From Methanohalobium evestigatum Z-7303 (GTDB lineage: Archaea > Halobacteriota > Methanosarcinia > Methanosarcinales > Methanosarcinaceae), in the NCBI RefSeq assembly GCF_000196655.1, contig NC_014254.1, positions 62,001-126,000 of the forward strand: a stretch of 64,000 bases of DNA, in the 5' to 3' direction. The notes below the pieces were generated by a model. That model worked only from the letters and a program-made list of their open reading frames with translations. It was not told the DNA's origin and made no database searches. Of this stretch, positions 18,235 through 28,796 are shown piece by piece; position 1 is the first letter of the stretch; each line of letters begins with the position of its first letter. A program made the position numbers and the translations under genes.

Positions 18235-19540
18235 AGACTCAGCGGCTTCAGAAGGAGTTTGCTTTACCGACATGTGTTGCCGAAAAACCTTATCCTTCTT
18301 GGATGGTTCACACATCCACTATCGGTTATCTCTATGAGAGAATCACCGACTACTTTTCTTAATATGTTCAAAGCTCCATTAACATCAGCATTGAGCAATT
18401 TACCAGTAGAAGACTGGAACAATCCCCTCTTGACTCTTTTACCCATGTATTTTTGATGTTTTTCAATGGGTTCTAATGCAAGTGCATCGGTTTTACTGGT
18501 ATATGCCTCATCAACTTCTATACAATTGATACCGTAGTACTCACATTTAGACCGAAGTTTCTGTTTGAATTTACCAAAGGGTATAGTTTGAAAAGTCTGG
18601 TTATTCTTTTTACCCATGTTGGAGTTCTGTTTTATGTCTTTCAGTTCTCCGATTATGATGTTGCCGATGTTATTATCTATACAGTGTTTAACGATATAGT
18701 TAACACTCTGATTCATGAAATCGTTGAGTTTGTTCTTCCTTTTCTCGAACAACCAGTTCAGTTTCTGACCTGATTTAATACCCTGTTTATCATATACAGA
18801 CTGCAACCCACTTTTGACTTTGTTCCACCAACGGTTATATGATTTCAAACCCCTGCCTTCTATGATGAAAGCAGTCCCATTGGTATCTACACAGGTTGCG
18901 AAATTGTTCACTCCTAAATCAATAGATAGATGTTTATTGTAGTCTAAATCGACTTTTTCACCGATATCCCTGTAAACATACTCTATCTCAAACCATTGTC
19001 CGTTATACTTTGGGATTATCCTTACTTCTTTTATGTGTTTACCGGTTATGTTTTCAGGTAACTTGAAGTACAGGTATCTAACACCATAGTTTTTGTAAAA
19101 TTCTCTACCCATAGACAACCTGATGAATCTTTCATCAATTTTAAACATATCTTTTGGAAAGATACATACAAATTTAGAGTCTTTAGGTAAGTATTCAGGC
19201 ATCTTTACAGGTCGGTTGTAGTTGCCTCTTTTTTTCTCACCCAGAACCCTGAAAAACGATTTCATGTTTCTATCTACTACTTTCATGGTTTGCTGTGCAA
19301 CCTGTGAAGGCAGCATCTTGTAATTCTCATTTTCTTTTATCAGATGATAAGCGGATTCATGATTGAGATATTTTGAATTGTCAAAATAGTATTGTCTTGT
19401 AGTGTACAGAGTAAAATTGTACAGATTTTTAGACAATTTAGTAATCCTTTTCAGGACTTCATACTTCTGTTTATCCGCTTTGATATGGTTTTTCTGGGTG
19501 AGATGTATTTTATTATATATTTTATAATTATATTATTTAA
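18214..19540 (-). mobile_element. IS200/IS605-family element, tnpB-only (IS1341-type)
   Basis: The element carries only tnpB and no TnpA transposase, so it would need help to move. The right end is clear: a perfect 8-bp hairpin CCGCTGAG/CTCAGCGG (18223-18245) followed by a GTAGTTCAC-like tip near 18214. The region between the tnpB stop and this tip would correspond to the omega (guide) RNA 3' part in this family. The left end is not resolved; it lies somewhere in 19510-19574. The insertion separates a truncated small gene from a helicase lacking its N-terminal half. Confidence 0.7.
18264..19508 (-). CDS. tnpB: TnpB, RuvC-like RNA-guided nuclease of an IS605-type element
   Basis: About 414 residues. 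RuvC-like catalytic segments are visible: SIDLGVNNFATC (first Asp), IIGELKDI (Glu) and NADVNGALNILRKV (last Asp). The usual four-Cys zinc ribbon between the last two is absent; the region runs from TSKTDALALEP to KRGLFQSSTGK with no C-x2-C pairs, a variant seen in part of the family. Family N-termini read LTQKNHIKADKQKYEVL, and that sequence is encoded in frame upstream of the first conventional start (TTG at 19436). The natural start codon position at 19508 is ATA, so this copy either starts non-canonically or has lost its ATG. Confidence 0.85.
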   Translation of the reverse strand: MHLTQKNHIKADKQKYEVLKRITKLSKNLYNFTLYTTRQYYFDNSKYLNHESAYHLIKENENYKMLPSQVAQQTMKVVDRNMKSFFRVLGEKKRGNYNRPVKMPEYLPKDSKFVCIFPKDMFKIDERFIRLSMGREFYKNYGVRYLYFKLPENITGKHIKEVRIIPKYNGQWFEIEYVYRDIGEKVDLDYNKHLSIDLGVNNFATCVDTNGTAFIIEGRGLKSYNRWWNKVKSGLQSVYDKQGIKSGQKLNWLFEKRKNKLNDFMNQSVNYIVKHCIDNNIGNIIIGELKDIKQNSNMGKKNNQTFQTIPFGKFKQKLRSKCEYYGINCIEVDEAYTSKTDALALEPIEKHQKYMGKRVKRGLFQSSTGKLLNADVNGALNILRKVVGDSLIEITDSGCVNHPRRIRFFGNTCR

Positions 19541-19574
19541 ATGTTACGTTATGTATTAGACGGTATTCATCCCT

Positions 19575-22100
19575 TTGTTTCATTTTGACGAAATGAAACT
19601 CGCATTAAATCTGCGATTTGATGCGATGCTGAAGACATCAGGGTTTTCTACCTTCCGTTATTATAAAATCACGGGAATTAACCATGGTTCATTAGCAGCT
19701 CGGCATCTGCTACTTGAAGGTAATCTTGATACATTAGATTATATTCTAGCATTATCAAAGGATGAACGGTATTCCAAGCTAATAGATGCTTTGAATATGT
19801 TAGAAAATAGCAATACAACAACACTTACCGAACTTGCTGCTTATTGGGATAAATACACAGAAAATATCAACTGGTTCTATGAACAAGTAAAAGGACTTGG
19901 TATTTCTGAAAGTTTAAATACCGATGAATTGGAAAATTTGCATAAAGATCTAGCAGATATGATTTCCATTCAAAACCGCGTGAATGCTAATAATAGTGCA
20001 CTTAATGTAATTAGGAAGGCTAATAAAGGCGATTTAATCTACCCTGGAGCCGATTGTATAGAACTTAGAGATGCTATTGAAGCAGCGAAAATAATTCATT
20101 CTGTTGACATTCCCGCCAACATGCGACAGAACCTTTTTGTTAAAGATTATAAATCACAAAAAGATTATTTGAGCAAAATGGCAGCTAACATATATTCAGA
20201 TCTTGGTAAAGTAGATTCAGCATCAAGCGAAGCAAAAGATATTGCACATATTGATTTTGAGGATTTCTTTAAAGGTGATTCTGAAAAATTAGAAATTCAG
20301 TATTTAATTGATACAATTGTTCGTGCAGAAAATAACCCTGAAGAACTACAAAATTGGAGTAAATTTATTGACACTGTTGAGAAGGCTAGTGAGGCAGGTA
20401 TAAGTCCTGTAATAGATACATACCTGTCAGGGGATTTATACTTTGAAAATTTGGATACAACATATGAACAGGTACTTTACCGAAACTTGGCCCACATTGC
20501 ATATGAAAAATATCCAGAACTTAATCGTTTTAGCGGTCTGAAACAGGAAGAAGCCCGCGAAAGATTCCGTAAAACCGACAGAGAACTTATAGACCTGGAA
20601 AGGAAATATTTACGGGCAAAGCTTGCCAAAGCTCCTATTACCCGTAGGAACAGTGAAGGGTTACCTCGTGATAAAACCGAACTTGGGTTAATAAACCATG
20701 AACGTAGCAAGAAACGCAAACATATCTCCTTCCGTGATTTGATGAACCGTGCCGGCAAAGCTATACAAGAACTTAAACCCTGTTTCATGATGAGTCCTTT
20801 ATCAGTTTCGCAATATCTAAAACCAGGTACTTCAGAGTTTGACCTCGTTGTAATTGATGAAGCATCACAGATGAAACCTGAAGACTCGTTGGGCGCATTA
20901 GCACGCTCTAAACAGATAGTTGTAGTTGGTGATCCAAAACAATTACCACCTACTTCATTCTTTGAACGCCTTGGTGGGGATGACAATGAAACAGAAGAAA
21001 ATGATGCAGACACTGTAGAAAGTATACTCGAGATGGCAATGCGTTGCTGGCAACCTTATCGGCGTCTTCTATGGCATTACCGGTCACGTCATGAATCTTT
21101 AATCGACTTTTCGAATAAAAAATTCTATAACGATCAACTTATTGTGTTCCCATCTCCGGTAACCAATCATCCTAGTTACGGAGTACATATGGAGTACGTT
21201 GGAGGTACCTGTAGAAAAGGAGGAACAAATATAAAAGAAGCTCAACGTGTGGCAGAAGCAGCTGTTGAGTTCATGCAAACAAATCCTGAACAATCTCTTG
21301 GTGTAGTTGCAATGAACAAAGTACAAACGGATTTGATAGAAGACGAAGTCAGTCGTTTATTAACAGAAAATACAGCTGCTTACAATTACATCGAACACTG
21401 GGATAAGATAAATGGCGGTCTTGAGAGTTTCTTTGTGAAAAATCTTGAAAATGTCCAGGGTGATGAAAGAGATGTAATATTTATATCTACTACCTATGGA
21501 CCTGATTCTGAAAGTGGAAAAGTGCACCAACGCTTTGGTCCGATCAATTCGAACGTTGGATATCGTCGACTTAATGTACTTTTTACAAGAGCAAAAGAAC
21601 AGGTACAGCTTTTTACATCAATGAGACCTTCAGATGTTCGGGTTAATGAAGAAAATGTTAATTTTGGTCGGAGAGCACTGCATGACTATTTAGAATACGC
21701 AGCTACAGGTAGACTTCAAGGTGGTGATGGAAGTTCTAATGAACCTGAAAATGATTTCGAAAGACACGTTAAGGAACACCTTGAAAAAAGAGGATTCGAT
21801 GTAGATTGCCAAGTAGGTGTATCTGGATACTTTATAGATTTGGCAGTCAGCCACCCTGCGTTCTCTGACGGATATTTGGCTGGTATAGAATGTGATGGAG
21901 CTACATATCATTCAGCAAAGTCTGCTCGAGACCGTGATCGATTACGTCAGGAAATTTTAGAAAATCTTGGATGGGATATATATAGAGTTTGGTCCACTGA
22001 CTGGTTTGCTAACCCGAAGAAGGAAACTGATAAGCTTGAACAATATATACACAGTCTATTGGAAACTAAAGCACCGGTAACACTGGAAAAAGCAGCATAA
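19575..22100 (+). pseudogene. 5'-truncated superfamily 1 helicase with Vsr-like nuclease domain
   Basis: 841 codons covering the C-terminal part of a large DUF4011-type helicase. Motif II is clear (VVIDEASQMKPED, then VVVGDPKQLPPTSFF), as are the later motifs LENVQGDERDVIFIS and RLNVLFTRAKEQ. A C-terminal domain with DLAVSHPAF and GIECDGATYHSAKSARDRDR fits the Vsr/MTES_1575 endonuclease-like fold. The Walker A loop (GPPGTGKS-type) and the whole N-terminal DUF4011 region are missing, and the IS605-type element abuts the 5' end. The gene has probably lost its start by insertion plus deletion. Full-length relatives occur in defence islands. Residual expression is possible but ATPase function is unlikely. 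Confidence 0.75.
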
Positions 22101-22108
22101 TTTTTAAA

Positions 22109-22129
22109 ACCAATGGTTCAATCATTGGT
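22109..22129 (+). terminator. Hairpin after the helicase
   Basis: ACCAATG-N7-CATTGGT followed by a TTTAATTTTT tract, 9 nt after the helicase stop codon. Confidence 0.5.
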
Positions 22130-22284
22130 ATTTAATTTTTAACTTGATTGTTCTTAAAAGTATTACATTGTCTCATTATCTTTTGATTTTGCAAAAACCA
22201 GATTTGTTCTCTAAACTTGTTAAATAAGAATACCTTAAATATTAAAATTAAAAATATAGTTATTAAATAATACTGGTGTTGCAT

Positions 22285-24489
22285 ATGAGTGAAATAGAGG
22301 TGGATCAAGAACTACTTTTAGACCAGACAAACACTCAAATCTTTATCTTTATTGATGAACAAACATATTATCTAGCAAATAAAGCGCATGCTGATTTTTT
22401 GGGCCTTGATAAAAATGAGTTTGAAAATGTAAATATTTATAATGTTTTTACTAGAGATGTCGCTGACTATTGTTTCAAAGAAAACGAAAAAATTTTCAAA
22501 GAAAACGAAAAAATTCACACCAGGAGATGGTTTAAAAACAGTAATGGAGTTTCCAGGCTACTTTCAATTACAAAAACTCCTAAACTCGATTCATTCAATA
22601 ATGTTGAATATATAATCTGTTCTGCAGAAGATATAACAGAAAAAAATCAATCAGAAAAACAGAAGAAAAAAAGTGAGGAACTCTTCCGCGAAATAACAGA
22701 AAATATGGTGGAGATGATTTGTCTTACTGATAAAAACGGCAATTTCGTATATGCAGGACCTTCTTATAAATCAAATTTAGGGTATGACCCTGAAAACTTA
22801 ATTGGCAAATCAGTATTCAATTTTGTCCATCCGGACGATTTAGATAGGATAAAAAGCGAGTTTAATAGTTTGTTAGAGACTTTAATCCCCAGAAAATCAG
22901 AATATAGATGTCTGCATGCTGATGGACATTACCTCTGGCTTGAAACATATGGTAATTTTATTTACGATGATGTAGGTAACATAAAAAAAATAGTTTTTAC
23001 TGGCCGTGATATCACTAAGAGGAAAGAACTCGAACAAAAATTGAAAAACTCGTATGAAATCATAAATAATAGCCGTGTTGTTGCATTTTTGTGGAAAAAC
23101 GATAAAGAAAACGGATGGCCGGTAGAATATGTGTCTAATAATGTAGTTGACATTTTCGGTTATACTGTGGATTATTTTAGTGGTGGTAAATTAAGTTATG
23201 CTGATATAATTCATCCTGATGATCTTGAAAGAGTGAGGTCGGAAGTTGAAACGTATAGTGATGATCCTGACCGTTTTAAATTTCAACATAAACCCTACCG
23301 CATAATTACCAAAACCGGGGACATAAGGTGGGTTGATGATAGAACTACTATAATAAGGAACGATTTTGGAGAAATCACGCATTATCAGGGTGTTATCCTT
23401 GATATCACGGACCGTAAATTAGCAGAAGACAGATTGATGGAAAACGAAAAAATGTTGGATGATACCTTTGAAAGTATACAGGATGGTATCAGCATTATAG
23501 ACACAGAATTTAATGTATTACGTGCCAATAGTAAAATGGGTGAATGGTACAAGGTAAATACACCTCTTGAAGGAAAAAAGTGTTATCAGGTTTATCATAA
23601 CAGCAGTAAACCATGTGACCAGTGTCCTACATAGCGTGCTTTTAAAACTGGTAAAACGGAAACAGATGTAGTCCCCGGGTTACAGGAATCTGAGGTCGAA
23701 TGGCTTGAGATTTACAGTTATCCAATGATCGACAGTTACACCGGAAAAATATCAGCTGTAGTTGAATTTGTACGTGATATTACTGAAAAAGTAAAAACTG
23801 AAAAACAACTAAAAAAATACGCAACAAAACTCAAACAAATGAACGAAGAATTAGAACACCGTGTCCAGAAACAGACAGAAGAAATTAAAAACGCTGAGAG
23901 ATTAAGAGTTTTAGAACTACATCACCGGATAAAGAACAATCTACAGGTTATATCCAGCCTACTTAACCTCCAATCTGAAAAATTCAACGATGATACCGTT
24001 AATGAGGCATTTAGAGACACTCAAAATAGAGTGATTTCAATGTCACTCGTTCATCAAAAAATATACCACACAAAAGGCTTGGAAAGTATTAATGTAAGAG
24101 ATTATATAGAGGACCTTATAGAACACCTGATCAGTTTATATAATGGAGAAAAGACACTAGTCAAAATTGATATACAGGATACTTATTTTGGAATCGATAC
24201 CATTATTCCACTTGGAATGTTAATTAACGAGTTAGTATCTAATTCTCTGAAATATGCATACCCAGAAGACAAATACGGTGAACTAAACGTTATTTTTTAT
24301 GAAAGTAATCCGGGGTTATATACACTTATCGTATCAGATAATGGTAAAGGAATACCGGAAGACATTGACCTGGATAATCCCAGTTCTCTTGGGATGCAAA
24401 TTATAAAAAGCCTGGTAGGTCAGATTGATGGTGATCTGGATGTGGATGGAAATAATGGTACAACATTTATCATTAATTTCAATGGTTAA
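22285..24489 (+). CDS. Multi-PAS histidine kinase with an in-frame TAG codon (possible pyrrolysine)
   Basis: Sensor kinase of 734 residues if the TAG at 23632-23634 (codon 450) is read through. There are four PAS domains (about 15-125, 140-255, 265-380, 385-500), a HisKA_2-type dimerisation region with the ELHHRIKNNLQVISSLLNLQ block near residue 545, and a HATPase domain with N box (INELVSNSLKYA) and G boxes (DNGKGIP, SLGMQIIKSL). No membrane segments, so cytoplasmic. The TAG falls inside PAS4 between CDQCPT and RAFKTGKTE, a region where relatives are continuous, and the same frame continues without damage for 285 codons. In Methanosarcinaceae TAG can encode pyrrolysine; the alternative is a nonsense mutation. 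The ATG at 22285 is preferred over the upstream TTG. The response regulator at 48780 is a conceivable but distant partner. Confidence 0.85.
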
Positions 24490-24617
24490 TTTTCAAGAAT
24501 ATCTGGTTTCCTATATCTATTGAACGGGGTTATTATTATAACTTAAAGTCGAAAAATTAACCCAAAACTATCTATAACTTTATTAATTTATGGTTATTGG
24601 AAATCAATATCAACAAT

Positions 24618-24749
24618 ATGCCTAAACTTTAAGATTGTCTGGAAAATGTAGGTGATACTATTAAACTTAGTGAATATATAGGGTACATTGTTTATGTATT
24701 CTTTCTGTTTGTTGTATCTGTAGGTTTAATATATCTTGTTAGAGCATGA
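24618..24749 (+). pseudogene. Small single-helix membrane ORF with an early TAA
   Basis: ATG CCT AAA CTT TAA is followed in the same frame by an open stretch encoding a soluble start (DCLENVGDTIKLSEY) and one membrane helix (GYIVYVFFLFVVSVGLIYL), ending at TGA. The hydrophobic pattern looks coding, but the ochre codon at position 5 blocks it. It is either a decayed gene or uses an unrecognised start after the TAA. Confidence 0.3.
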
Positions 24750-24834
24750 TATTTTTAGCTGGCTTATATTCCCTCTCTTTATCTGTTTAGTTTTGAATGA
24801 CGTTACGTAAAATAAAGGAACTACCTAATGTTGA

Positions 24835-24873
24835 AGCCACCGGCTTATATGGGAGTCATATCTACCGGTGGCT
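24835..24873. other. Strong intergenic hairpin
   Basis: AGCCACCGG (24835-24843) pairs perfectly with CCGGTGGCT (24865-24873), and the inner ATATG/CATAT extends the stem. The surrounding GAAGCC...CTAAG context is reminiscent of IS200/IS605 end hairpins, but no transposase is next to it. A second hairpin, TGTAATCT-N8-AGATTACA, follows at 24905-24928. Confidence 0.4.
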
Positions 24874-25045
24874 AAGATTGGGGCAAAAGTCGATTCCAAC
24901 TTTCTGTAATCTATTATAACAGATTACACCATTCCCTCGTTTTTCAATACCTATATTCTTTTTGATTTTTGTGCAATAATACAATTTTTCTGACTCTAAA
25001 TTCAGGTAATTGATTTTCAAATCCAATTTATTGCTAACATAATCA

Positions 25046-25067
25046 TTTTACTTATAATTAAGTAAAA
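25046..25067. repeat. Palindrome TTTTACTT-N6-AAGTAAAA, copy 2
   Basis: Perfect 8-bp arms with spacer ATAATT. It is followed at once by an AAAGTTTATAGTTTATA stretch similar to that near the other copies. Confidence 0.55.
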
Positions 25068-25170
25068 TTCAAAGTTTATAGTTTATATGTTTTAAATAAC
25101 AATAAGTTAAAATAGTTTATTAAATAGAAAAAATTAATTAGAATGAAATTTTATTTTAGCGCAGAAAAAA

Positions 25171-25229
25171 GACAAAGGAAATGATGAGCCTCGGAGAGAG
25201 GGGATAAATGCGTGTGTATTTCCTTTGTC
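25171..25229 (+). ncRNA. Conserved hairpin RNA motif, copy 1
   Basis: A 59-nt element. The terminal 12-bp stem is perfect (GACAAAGGAAAT/ATTTCCTTTGTC). An inner CCTC-GGAGA-GAGG stem precedes the invariant stretch GGGATAAATGCGTG. Two other copies (55362-55417 and 55716-55773) share the stem core CAAAGGA/TCCTTTG, the inner stem and the GATA(AA)TGCGTG stretch. The outer base pairs differ in a compensatory way (GAC/GTC, AGC/GCT, GGC/GCC). That is the pattern of a conserved RNA, not of a simple DNA repeat. The RNA family is not one I recognise. Confidence 0.6.
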
Positions 25230-25351
25230 AATACTGAAATTAACATAGAATTATATAACAGTTATCTTGTTATCATATTCTAAAATAGAAATTTATTAGT
25301 TAAAGTAAAAAATTATAAAGGACAATATCAAAATTATCCTGGTTCTACTAT

Positions 25352-26548
25352 TTACCACAAAACTCTATCACTTACCAGATATTCATAAAAGGCGCTTCCT
25401 GTTTCTCTATCACCTTTATATTCAATCAATGCACCATCTGGTTGATGGGACATGAAATCGACAAATCCCACTGGTTTTCCAAAAGGTGATACGGGGTCAT
25501 AATCAAACTCTGCAACCTGTGAAGCAGTTATAGTTACGTTTAAACGTGAATCAGAAGTTGAAAACGTGACTGTTTCAGGTCTTGTTATATTATTAGATCT
25601 TGTGTTATCAGGATATCCTGTATCAATCAGGTTTGTTTCGTTGATTTTTATTTCATTCCCTGAATATTCTTCAAGGACTTTACCTGTATGTTTATCCAAC
25701 AACGTCAGATGTTTGTATGAATAGTTATCGTAACCATCATCTATCCCCCGTACCGCATATGCAATAGTCTGGTAGTTTTTAGTGGTAACTTCAGACCAGC
25801 TCCACCCATGCATATTAGTTGTCCATGATAACTCACCATAATTATGATTAATATTGTTACTGGGTATCATGTGGTCCATATATCCGTTAGCCTGAGTGAC
25901 TCTGTAATCTACACCATCTATGGTTATTTTACCATGAAGGCGCCCGTATGAACGTTCATAGGTAGTGAAATTAAGTGAATTAACAGATTCATCAACGGTT
26001 TTATCAACATTTGTCTGGAAATAAAGGTCCATGTCTACTCTATCGGTCTCATAATCAAGATGATAGCCGCTGAGGTGGTTTCCAGTTAAGCTTTTAGAAC
26101 CATCCGGATAATTATAATTTACGTATGGTGTACCGAATGCTATGTAATTAGTTACATTTTCCCTTGAAACATTGGTATCTATGAAATTAAAATCCGCTTC
26201 AGTTTCACCGTCAAAATACAGACCATTAAATGAGAGCATATAGGATTGTGGTTTTTCAGCACCAAGATTAGTTTGCAGGGTTTCATTGATTTCCTGGTGT
26301 GCGAGCACGACAAAGAAACTAAAATCTTTCTTTTCGCCATTTTGTCCTACAAGTTTGGTGTCTCCATTAAGGTACCACCATTCTGCCATCATATCAGCAT
26401 CAAAATCATCTTCAAAATTTCCACCTTCTGTAAAATCCAAGTTTGGGTTATTCTTCCATCCATTGTTCTCAAATGGTTGTGCTGAGATTGTACCTGTAGC
26501 TATAATCAAACAAATTATAGCCAGAGCTAAGTAGTATATGCTTTTCAA
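25352..26548 (-). CDS. Secreted AttH/CrtC-like (lipocalin-fold) protein
   Basis: 398 residues with an N-terminal signal peptide (LALAIICLIIATGTISAQ). The mature part has the AttH/CrtC hallmarks: EWWYLNGDTKL near the start, a GYMDHMIPSNN segment in the place of the usual DHQWG region, and GWSWSEV. These proteins form a double lipocalin-like barrel; CrtC hydrates carotenoids, but most archaeal members are uncharacterised. No carotenoid genes are nearby, so no substrate is proposed. A GTATATATAAAA box lies about 40-50 nt upstream. The word CTGTAATCTATTATA occurs both upstream (26602) and downstream (24904) of the gene. Confidence 0.7.
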   Translation of the reverse strand: MKSIYYLALAIICLIIATGTISAQPFENNGWKNNPNLDFTEGGNFEDDFDADMMAEWWYLNGDTKLVGQNGEKKDFSFFVVLAHQEINETLQTNLGAEKPQSYMLSFNGLYFDGETEADFNFIDTNVSRENVTNYIAFGTPYVNYNYPDGSKSLTGNHLSGYHLDYETDRVDMDLYFQTNVDKTVDESVNSLNFTTYERSYGRLHGKITIDGVDYRVTQANGYMDHMIPSNNINHNYGELSWTTNMHGWSWSEVTTKNYQTIAYAVRGIDDGYDNYSYKHLTLLDKHTGKVLEEYSGNEIKINETNLIDTGYPDNTRSNNITRPETVTFSTSDSRLNVTITASQVAEFDYDPVSPFGKPVGFVDFMSHQPDGALIEYKGDRETGSAFYEYLVSDRVLW

Positions 26549-26725
26549 GTTGTTCCCCCTTAAAGATTTATAATTACAGTTGATAATATTTTATATATAC
26601 TCTGTAATCTATTATACTGGGTTATAATAACTAATATAAGATAAGCTTTTTGTCAGTTAACGAACCATCTCTTGGCCAAAAACAAGCAACTTTAGAGAGG
26701 AGTTACGCTACATCAAAGCGTCTTA

Positions 26726-27250
26726 TTAATTGGATTTTTTGGCCAGATAATAATTTATAATAAAACCGAAAGTAATCACGAATCCAAGTATTTCAAAAAT
26801 CAATACTTGAGACAACCCTGATGTAAATACATTATCAATAACCTGCATAATATAAACAGAAAAATCCGTTTGAACAACTTCATAATCTGCTTTGAAATTT
26901 AAACCCAACAAAGGCCAATATAATGTTTGAGGAATGGTCCACATCTTATCAAGTAAAAGGTGACACATAAATCCCCAACCTATAATGGAAACAAAGTAAC
27001 TACCTCTCCTTCTGACAAAATAATCTCCTGCTACAATAAACAACACAGCAAAAATTAAGGTATGAGCATAAATCCTGCCATTACCCACTTGTTCTGGAAA
27101 CAATAAGATCCCAAACCCCTTATCAACCAAATCAGGAAGTATAGCAACAAAAGCTACTAATCGGTAATCTATAGGCTTATCCAACCTTAAAATTTTAGTG
27201 ACCAAGTAAAAAATAATTATTGTAAATCCAATATGAGCAAAGATAAACAT
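26726..27250 (-). CDS. YdjM/DUF457-like membrane protein
   Basis: 174 residues with four to five membrane helices. Conserved polar residues fit the DUF457 (YdjM-like, 'membrane-bound metal-dependent hydrolase') pattern: an early H (MFIFAHIGF), LPDLVDKG, GRIYAHTLIF and CHLLLDKMWTIPQTLYWPL. These residues are thought to bind metal at the membrane face. The substrate is unknown. The zinc-ribbon gene at 27437 is next upstream on the same strand, too far away to assume an operon. Confidence 0.65.
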   Translation of the reverse strand: MFIFAHIGFTIIIFYLVTKILRLDKPIDYRLVAFVAILPDLVDKGFGILLFPEQVGNGRIYAHTLIFAVLFIVAGDYFVRRRGSYFVSIIGWGFMCHLLLDKMWTIPQTLYWPLLGLNFKADYEVVQTDFSVYIMQVIDNVFTSGLSQVLIFEILGFVITFGFIINYYLAKKSN

Positions 27251-27436
27251 CGCTTATTCAACTTTGATATACTGCCATATAGTTTTTTATCATAGCTGCT
27301 ACTAAATTAGTAATAATAATGAATCAAACAAGTTTGCAAACAAGTTGAACTACAAACTGTTTTGACTACTTAATACATATCATATACCTTATCAATAGTA
27401 CTAATATACCTTTTGTACTATTTGATTAACTAAATT

Positions 27437-27580
27437 TTAGATTTTCATACTTACTTTATTCATCGATTTTTCAGCTTTGCTTAAACATTCCAGTGTGCAA
27501 TATACAGCTTCGTTAGCTGCATCTTCCATCACTACGAATTTTCCCCCACATATTGGACAGCTTTTCATAATATATTCCAT
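27437..27580 (-). CDS. Small zinc-ribbon-like protein
   Basis: 47 residues: MEYIMKSCPICGGKFVVMED, then a second pair in YCTLECLSK. The C-P-I-C and C-x3-C pairs would bind one zinc ion, a compact treble-clef/zinc-ribbon arrangement. A GAGGGG ribosome binding site 6 nt before the ATG supports translation. Partner and role unknown. Confidence 0.6.
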   Translation of the reverse strand: MEYIMKSCPICGGKFVVMEDAANEAVYCTLECLSKAEKSMNKVSMKI

Positions 27581-27899
27581 ATAATACCCCTCATATCCTG
27601 CAGTTGTAACTAATAACGAGTTTGCTCCATTGTTTGTATTATATAATATAATAACAGTTGGCCCTCTCCTCTTTTTACATAATAACCCATTTTGGATATT
27701 GATTATTATATTTTTGCACCAACCAAATAACTATTGATGCTTTTAAAGGATTTAAAAGTTTAGGTTTTCTTTTATTTGTTTTTTTACTAAAACCACAAAA
27801 ATATTATATGTTAATAAAAAATCAAGACAGGGTATATGTAAAATTTTAATAATATTATATTATGTTAATACGGCAAGACCAGGAAAAAAGGAGATAAAT

Positions 27900-28796
27900 T
27901 TGTTAAACAAAAGTACCATCCATAACGATATTATAACGATAATAATTTTAGTAATACTCACGATAGTATTTGTCCTAGTTCCACCTTTGAACGAAACACC
28001 TATTAGAATAATTCTTGGCCTTCCAATGGTGCTTTTCATACCTGGATATTCTTTGATTGCTGCATTATTCCCCAAAAAAGATGACCTGGATGGTATTGAA
28101 AGAATCGCTTTAAGTTTTGGTCTAAGTATTGCAGTGGTCCCACTTATAGGGTTAGGGCTAAATTATACGCCATGGGGTATCAGGTTAATTCCTATTATAG
28201 TCTCATTATCAACATTTACAATTTTGATGTGTGTTGCAACCATAATAAGACGTTCATCTTTGGATGAAAACGAAGTTTTTACTGTACCATTCAAATCGTC
28301 ATTAGAATCAATTAAAACAGAACTATTAACACCTCCTGAAGATTCTACAAGACCAAAACTTGACAAAGCGCTCAGTATAATACTTGTAATTTCTATCATT
28401 GCTTCTATTGCTACTCTGGCTTATGTAGTCACCACGCCAAAACAGGGTGAGAAATTTACCGAATTTTATGTACTCGGTCCAAATGGAATGGCAGATGATT
28501 ATCCTACAGAATTAGAAAAAGGTGAAAAGGGTACCGTTATCATAGGAATTACAAACCATGAATATGAGAAAACAGAGTACACTTTAAAAATGCAGCTTGA
28601 AAACAATACATTACCTATAGATAATAACGCCAAAACCATCGCATTAAAACATAACCAGACGTGGGAAGATACTCTGAAATTCACACCCCATAATACCGGT
28701 ACAAACATGAAACTTGAGTTTTTGTTATATAAAGACAACAATTTTACTGAACCCTATAGAAACCTTCATTTATGGGTTAACGTATCGGAGAATTAA
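27900..28796 (+). CDS. DUF1616 membrane protein
   Basis: 298 residues. Four N-terminal helices contain the DUF1616 signature RIILGLPMVLFIPGYSLIAALFP, split here for length, and ERIALSFGLSIAVVPLIGL. One further helix (near 160-180) precedes an external beta-rich domain with an NEW3-like tail. The start is TTG with AAAGGAG 6 nt upstream. The gene is 2 nt from the CPBP protease gene, so the two form an operon. In other archaea DUF1616 proteins are often beside envelope or glycan genes; the role here is unknown. Confidence 0.75.
   Translation: MLNKSTIHNDIITIIILVILTIVFVLVPPLNETPIRIILGLPMVLFIPGYSLIAALFPKKDDLDGIERIALSFGLSIAVVPLIGLGLNYTPWGIRLIPIIVSLSTFTILMCVATIIRRSSLDENEVFTVPFKSSLESIKTELLTPPEDSTRPKLDKALSIILVISIIASIATLAYVVTTPKQGEKFTEFYVLGPNGMADDYPTELEKGEKGTVIIGITNHEYEKTEYTLKMQLENNTLPIDNNAKTIALKHNQTWEDTLKFTPHNTGTNMKLEFLLYKDNNFTEPYRNLHLWVNVSEN

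Follow-up and report, generated by a model that had tools for sequence, protein, structure and literature searches.

In Methanosarcina acetivorans, Thg1 contains a pyrrolysine (Pyl) that is ascribed to neutral evolution and is unneeded for activity (PMC2933860, citing Heinemann et al. 2009, in the portion of the text available). The gene described here, a predicted plasmid-borne sensor histidine kinase gene of Methanohalobium evestigatum, resembles Thg1: both belong to Pyl-decoding methanogens, neither is a methyltransferase gene, and homologues lack the in-frame TAG. Unlike the kinase, which is known here from sequence, Thg1 was physically verified, and it is not a signalling protein. In 'Ca. 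Methanomethylophilus alvus', 16 Pyl proteins have been predicted and TAG accounts for 1.6% of stops, compared with 4-5% in Methanosarcina (PMC4153887, accessible part); the argument made there is that low TAG use accompanies efficient Pyl insertion and lets TAG arise harmlessly in genes. M. evestigatum shares with that organism very rare TAG terminators and several predicted Pyl proteins beyond methyltransferases. However, 'Ca. M. alvus' belongs to another methanogen order, and the chromosomal TAG share is lower in M. evestigatum (2/465). Kivenson et al. are said to have described, in Science in 2025, an archaeal 'Pyl code', with pyrrolysine read at every TAG codon in some archaea; such genome-wide decoding of TAG as Pyl would account for the stop usage of M. 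evestigatum.

Cluster 16 of a survey published in 2013 (PMC3639795, accessible part) consists of sensory histidine kinases from M. acetivorans, M. mahii and M. barkeri whose genes have a UAG in frame. The gene described here is likewise a Methanosarcinaceae histidine kinase that runs through an in-frame UAG, although the two are likened by description and not by sequence. For M. evestigatum the accessible part of that paper lists NC_014253.1 alone, so a plasmid gene would have escaped that screen. The initial annotation regarded a sensor kinase as an unusual carrier of TAG; this view is not supported, since unrelated genes of the same genome carry TAG (see below) and UAG kinases were already listed in the Methanosarcinaceae. 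No paper naming the plasmid kinase gene was found in a literature search, most subscription papers lying outside its reach. TAG-carrying histidine kinases have been proposed since 2013, and the plasmid kinase is, on its sequence, a new predicted case.

The genome consists of two contigs, C1 (2,242,317 bases) and C2 (163,915 bases, the plasmid). The window, i.e., the whole stretch of 64,000 nucleotides analyzed here, corresponds to C2:62001-126000; NC_014253.1 is presumably the M. evestigatum chromosome. Coordinates without a contig name refer to the window. The features of the kinase locus are as follows.

22230..22284, plus strand: upstream leader common to the kinase and its chromosomal paralogue (homology begins at 22230)
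22285..24489, plus strand: gene for a sensor histidine kinase (four PAS domains, then HisKA_2 and HATPase_c), carrying one in-frame TAG (735 codons including the stop)
23440..23850, plus strand: fourth PAS domain region, containing the TAG; the CY...CxxC cysteines here are shared widely across the aligned homologues
23614..23625, plus strand: CDQC cysteine pair, the second Cys three residues ahead of the TAG
23632..23634, plus strand: in-frame TAG, codon 450, predicted pyrrolysine
23725..23727, plus strand: ATG, the first in-frame start past the TAG, 31 codons on and within the PAS domain
23914..24141, plus strand: HisKA_2 dimerisation/phosphoacceptor domain, entirely 3' of the TAG (residues 547-622 from GTG 22276)
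24208..24477, plus strand: HATPase_c catalytic domain, 3' of the TAG (residues 645-734 from GTG 22276)

The in-frame TAG at 23632-23634 is flanked by CDQCPT and RAFKTGKTE and is codon 450 when counted from ATG 22285, as initially annotated; its placement inside the fourth PAS domain also agrees with the boundaries given above. The open frame extends over 452 amino acids before the TAG (from GTG 22276) and 284 codons after it, and is closed by TAA 24487-24489. In a Pfam search, the read-through product matched PAS in four stretches, as well as HisKA_2 (E 2.4e-29) and HATPase_c. This order of PAS sensors, HisKA_2 and HATPase_c is that of a HisKA_2 sensor histidine kinase, and the claim of a frame intact on both sides with a complete kinase core was borne out by the two domains found after the TAG. 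The motifs ELHHRIKNNLQ, NELVSNSLKYAY and DNGKGIP are all intact 3' of the TAG; we take the first to be the H-box region and the other two to be the N- and G-box regions. The structure of the fourth PAS domain, predicted from the single sequence, reached a mean pLDDT of only 47.6, and the best match among solved structures was a PAS sensor protein (E 0.047); neither result was drawn on. No methylamine genes were seen beside the kinase among the ORFs listed at 19000-28500.

We examined the genome for pyrrolysine machinery. The gene for tRNA-Pyl (pylT, anticodon cta) and pylS are located at C1:299.8 kb, and pylB, pylC and pylD at C1:894-897 kb, where pylC was assigned as the ORF adjoining pylB, without a match to its own family model. 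The same split layout is given for M. evestigatum in the accessible part of PMC9499178. With pylT (CUA), pylS, pylB, pylC and pylD, the genome has the complete set that marks a pyrrolysine-decoding organism; the initial annotation had suggested a search for these five genes, and the absence of pyl genes that it named as a refutation does not apply since all five are present. Two mtmB (methylamine methyltransferase) genes carry one in-frame TAG apiece, a second mark of a pyrrolysine-decoding organism, and both match PYLIS_1 at 105.3 bits. The genome also encodes aRF1, so that termination can compete with pyrrolysine insertion at TAG.

Two side observations concern these families. A second aRF1-like protein (C1:957112-957900) scored 134 bits, under the family cut-off; it might have a bearing on stop decoding or might be an unrelated eRF1-domain protein. 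A third MtmB homologue (C1:1469862-1471208) lacks TAG and has Met at the TAG site of the other two when aligned by eye. A non-Pyl MtmB homologue, MtqB, is required for the use of tetramethylammonium and choline in Methanococcoides (PMC13044021, accessible part).

To estimate the use of TAG as a terminator, ORFs of at least 80 aa were called, using a score for codon usage, over 784 kb comprising the whole plasmid and 31 chromosomal stretches of 20 kb. On the chromosome, 2 of 465 ORFs had TAG as their stop, and on the plasmid 4 of 87. Counted over both strands, 18.6% of all stop triplets are TAG, a share at which ∼86 of the 465 chromosomal ORFs would be expected to end in TAG (2 observed; P ∼1.6e-38). 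The scarcity of terminal TAG remarked on in the initial annotation was seen again in the window, where 30 ORFs were called, 18 ending in TAA, 11 in TGA and one in TAG, the last being the kinase itself. Among the six TAG-ended ORFs, the kinase and a GmrSD-type gene go on coding for the same protein beyond the TAG, a third is a PAS fragment and a fourth is, by eye, an apparent broken transposase. The remaining two meet their next stop just 8 and 3 codons on, so that TAG may truly terminate one or both of them. In four relatives, sampled over 200 kb, TAG-ended ORFs numbered 1/160 (G031), 1/162 (G020), 5/151 (G079) and 17/168 (G041). We concluded that TAG serves here almost exclusively as a sense codon.

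The kinase has a chromosomal paralogue (C1:1136217-1138424) that is 88% identical, has no internal stop and carries TCT (Ser) at the TAG site. A further copy, in a metagenome-assembled genome (MAG) of the same genus (Methanohalobium sp., NZ_JAHENT, G029), has TCA (Ser) there. The Ser codons of these two closest relatives are both two base changes from TAG. In the comparison with orthologues proposed in the initial annotation, homologous coding sequence is present on either side of the kinase TAG, and Ser stands in place of the TAG in both closest relatives. The genome contigs searched for closer relatives of the plasmid kinase gave the MAG copy alone plus four distant matches, and none was found in viral contigs or among plasmids (megablast).

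An intact paralogue and a TAG confined to the plasmid copy, among the kinase copies compared, are what a recent pseudogene would show: a nonsense mutation would have struck a redundant copy on the plasmid, leaving a PAS fragment without the kinase part as its sole product while the chromosomal paralogue works. The same plasmid also bears a TnpB-like insertion sequence and a further PAS gene that is decayed and contains TAGs. We compared the constraint on the two sides of the TAG, numbering codons from GTG 22276, which makes the TAG codon 453. The dN/dS against the chromosomal paralogue was 0.155 for codons 1-193, 0.090 for codons 194-452 and 0.101 after the TAG. In a three-way comparison, the window branch had 41 silent and 23 amino-acid changes in codons 194-452, and 62 silent and 32 after the TAG. 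Purifying selection after the TAG matches that before it. Had 10% of the window branch evolved neutrally, counts of amino-acid changes this low would have P 0.007, and at 5% P 0.07; neutral evolution across more than ∼5-10% of that branch is disfavored, in a test in which a very recent nonsense mutation would give an identical signal. The relaxed constraint and further lesions of a decayed pseudogene were not seen in the kinase frame, where neither a frameshift nor a second stop occurs along a branch whose dS is near 0.64. Hardly any gene of the genome ends in TAG, which is also present in the EcfA/CbiO and GmrSD genes, both of them intact. On this evidence, recent loss of the gene is unlikely. 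The uninterrupted 88% identical second copy and the constrained stretch past the TAG indicate that the kinase TAG is more than chance.

Some features of the two copies and their surroundings were noted separately. Over the first 193 codons (22285-22854) dS was 0.31, vs. 0.6-0.8 elsewhere, as if the kinase copies had recombined. Upstream, 18264-22100 contains a minus-strand TnpB-like ORF (by eye) followed by an 841-codon helicase-like ORF, apparently 5'-cut. The segment 19515-19668 recurs (157-base match) directly ahead of the chromosomal kinase paralogue. We considered this match a shared gene remnant and rejected that reading, since a similar leader precedes another kinase in the MAG; the repeat probably marks where an insertion sequence of the TnpB type ends.

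A second way to dispense with Pyl is to divide the gene into a PAS-only protein ending at the TAG and a separate PAS-fragment/HisKA_2/HATPase protein starting at ATG 23725, where a 254-aa ORF does begin. That restart, however, lies 31 codons past the TAG and within the PAS domain, and no Shine-Dalgarno-like sequence was seen by eye close upstream of it. The intervening 30 codons, from the TAG to that ATG, continue to encode the protein seen in the relatives: compared with the chromosomal copy, they comprise 14 that are identical, 9 with silent differences and 7 with amino-acid differences. We regard a split gene as very improbable, more so than gene loss.

We scanned the same 784 kb of the genome for bridged stops, i.e., stops with coding signal on either side. 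The scan gave 4 TAG, 14 TAA and 7 TGA sites, of which 3 TAG, 3 TAA and 1 TGA had no start codon within 15 codons downstream. All four TAG-bridged sites lie within one protein family each (EcfA/CbiO, GmrSD, the kinase and a PAS fragment). By comparison, two of the four TAA/TGA controls without a near restart proved to be neighboring distinct genes (DUF166 followed by a PolX-like protein; the small subunit of acetolactate synthase followed by ketol-acid reductoisomerase), and in the other two no Pfam domain was found across the stop. A strict version of the scan with a 30-codon coding window missed the kinase and GmrSD, and the relaxed version recovered both. A TAG site at C1:45847, seen in the strict scan only, was dropped as artefact-like; a TAA flagged in a kinase at C1:2223613 is the normal end of that kinase. 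A TGA was flagged at C1:349433.

The EcfA/CbiO-type ABC ATPase gene (C1:2203634-2204545, minus strand) has one TAG and is otherwise intact. The TAG replaces a Glu codon, GAG in 7/7 nearest homologues, and the orthologue in the Methanohalobium MAG is uninterrupted and 95% identical. The GmrSD-type restriction gene (C2:60340-62010, minus strand) reaches into the window with its gene start (positions 1-10) and has an in-frame TAG at codon 177. Both of its Pfam halves, PF03235 and PF07510, were found, and plasmid GmrSD is predicted to be another Pyl protein. The bridged TAG at C2:160.9 kb belongs to a PAS gene remnant (C2:160.4-161.5 kb) with a frameshift and two in-frame TAGs. A TAG-bearing kinase on contig C45 of the MAG was at first taken as support and then set aside because its 5' part is lost; this kinase and the plasmid remnant, the two other TAG-bearing PAS genes in Methanohalobium, look decayed. 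Among the matches listed for the kinase homologues, the stop-bearing ones comprised two with TAG (both Methanohalobium), one with TAA and one with TGA. In a relative from another genus, a gene that looks by eye like a biotin carboxylase (G020, near C1:615699) has an in-frame TAG in ALYEFII*GVTTNIPFHKAVL.

We next asked whether the kinase site is special. According to the initial annotation, Pyl in the kinase might couple signalling to the supply of Pyl or methylamine. The position of the TAG three residues past a widely conserved CxxC pair, together with its persistence in a constrained gene, would suit a Pyl selected beside CxxC, with kinase output governed by Pyl supply or by how reactive the Pyl ring is. 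The TAG column was aligned in 37 homologous domains: 9 came from kinase loci of M. evestigatum and the MAG, and the other 28 from loci of relatives. It holds 12 residue types: Lys (9), Ile, Phe and Arg (5 each), Ser (3), Met, Asn and Glu (2 each), and Asp, Leu, Val and Tyr (1 each). The cysteines ahead of the TAG are much more conserved. TAG conserved at a key site across orthologues, as in functional Pyl of the MtmB/MtbB/MttB type, was not seen in the kinase. No PYLIS was found at 23300-24100 at E up to 10 (vs. 105.3 bits in mtmB), and searches for other Rfam elements near the kinase TAG gave just two chance matches below gathering. PYLIS is reported as not required (PMC9499178, accessible part). 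A variable column with Ser in the closest relatives, and TAG carried likewise by unrelated genes, speak against a selected role, which we consider highly unlikely; the suggested link to Pyl or methylamine supply is not supported at such a site without PYLIS. Equally unlikely is the combined claim that Methanohalobium has wholly reassigned TAG and keeps no true TAG terminators, and that the kinase Pyl by CxxC is a sensing residue or makes the kinase supply-dependent.

The pyl genes, the scarcity of TAG terminators, the TAG-bridged genes and the purifying selection past the TAG together argue that the kinase TAG is most likely decoded as Pyl, giving a predicted full-length kinase; the original proposal of a candidate pyrrolysine codon is supported by the pyl genes and the near-dedicated sense use of TAG. 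PylS would charge pyrrolysyl-tRNA(CUA), which would insert pyrrolysine at codon 450, and the ribosome would continue past the TAG to yield a 734-residue PAS-PAS-PAS-PAS-HisKA_2-HATPase kinase. Pyl would have replaced a residue resembling Ser, at a variable site in the fourth PAS domain of the second, plasmid-borne copy. Since TAG is nearly lost as a terminator, a point change to TAG at a tolerant position is non-lethal and can drift. Given the variable column, Ser in the closest relatives and no PYLIS, the Pyl looks like a neutral replacement at a tolerant position, of the kind described for Thg1 and 'Ca. M. alvus'. We infer the incorporation of Pyl, its efficiency and its neutrality at codon 450, and hold with considerable confidence that TAG is a sense codon here, with Pyl at 450 in a full-length kinase as a neutral replacement without a special role.

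Automatic annotation would likely split or discard the kinase, plasmid GmrSD and chromosomal EcfA/CbiO, and these three are named genes for mass-spectrometry tests of TAG decoding. The close kinase pair, with TAG in one copy and Ser in the other, offers a natural comparison of the effect of pyrrolysine on a signalling protein. The kinase case strengthens the view of TAG as an almost pure sense codon in Methanohalobium.
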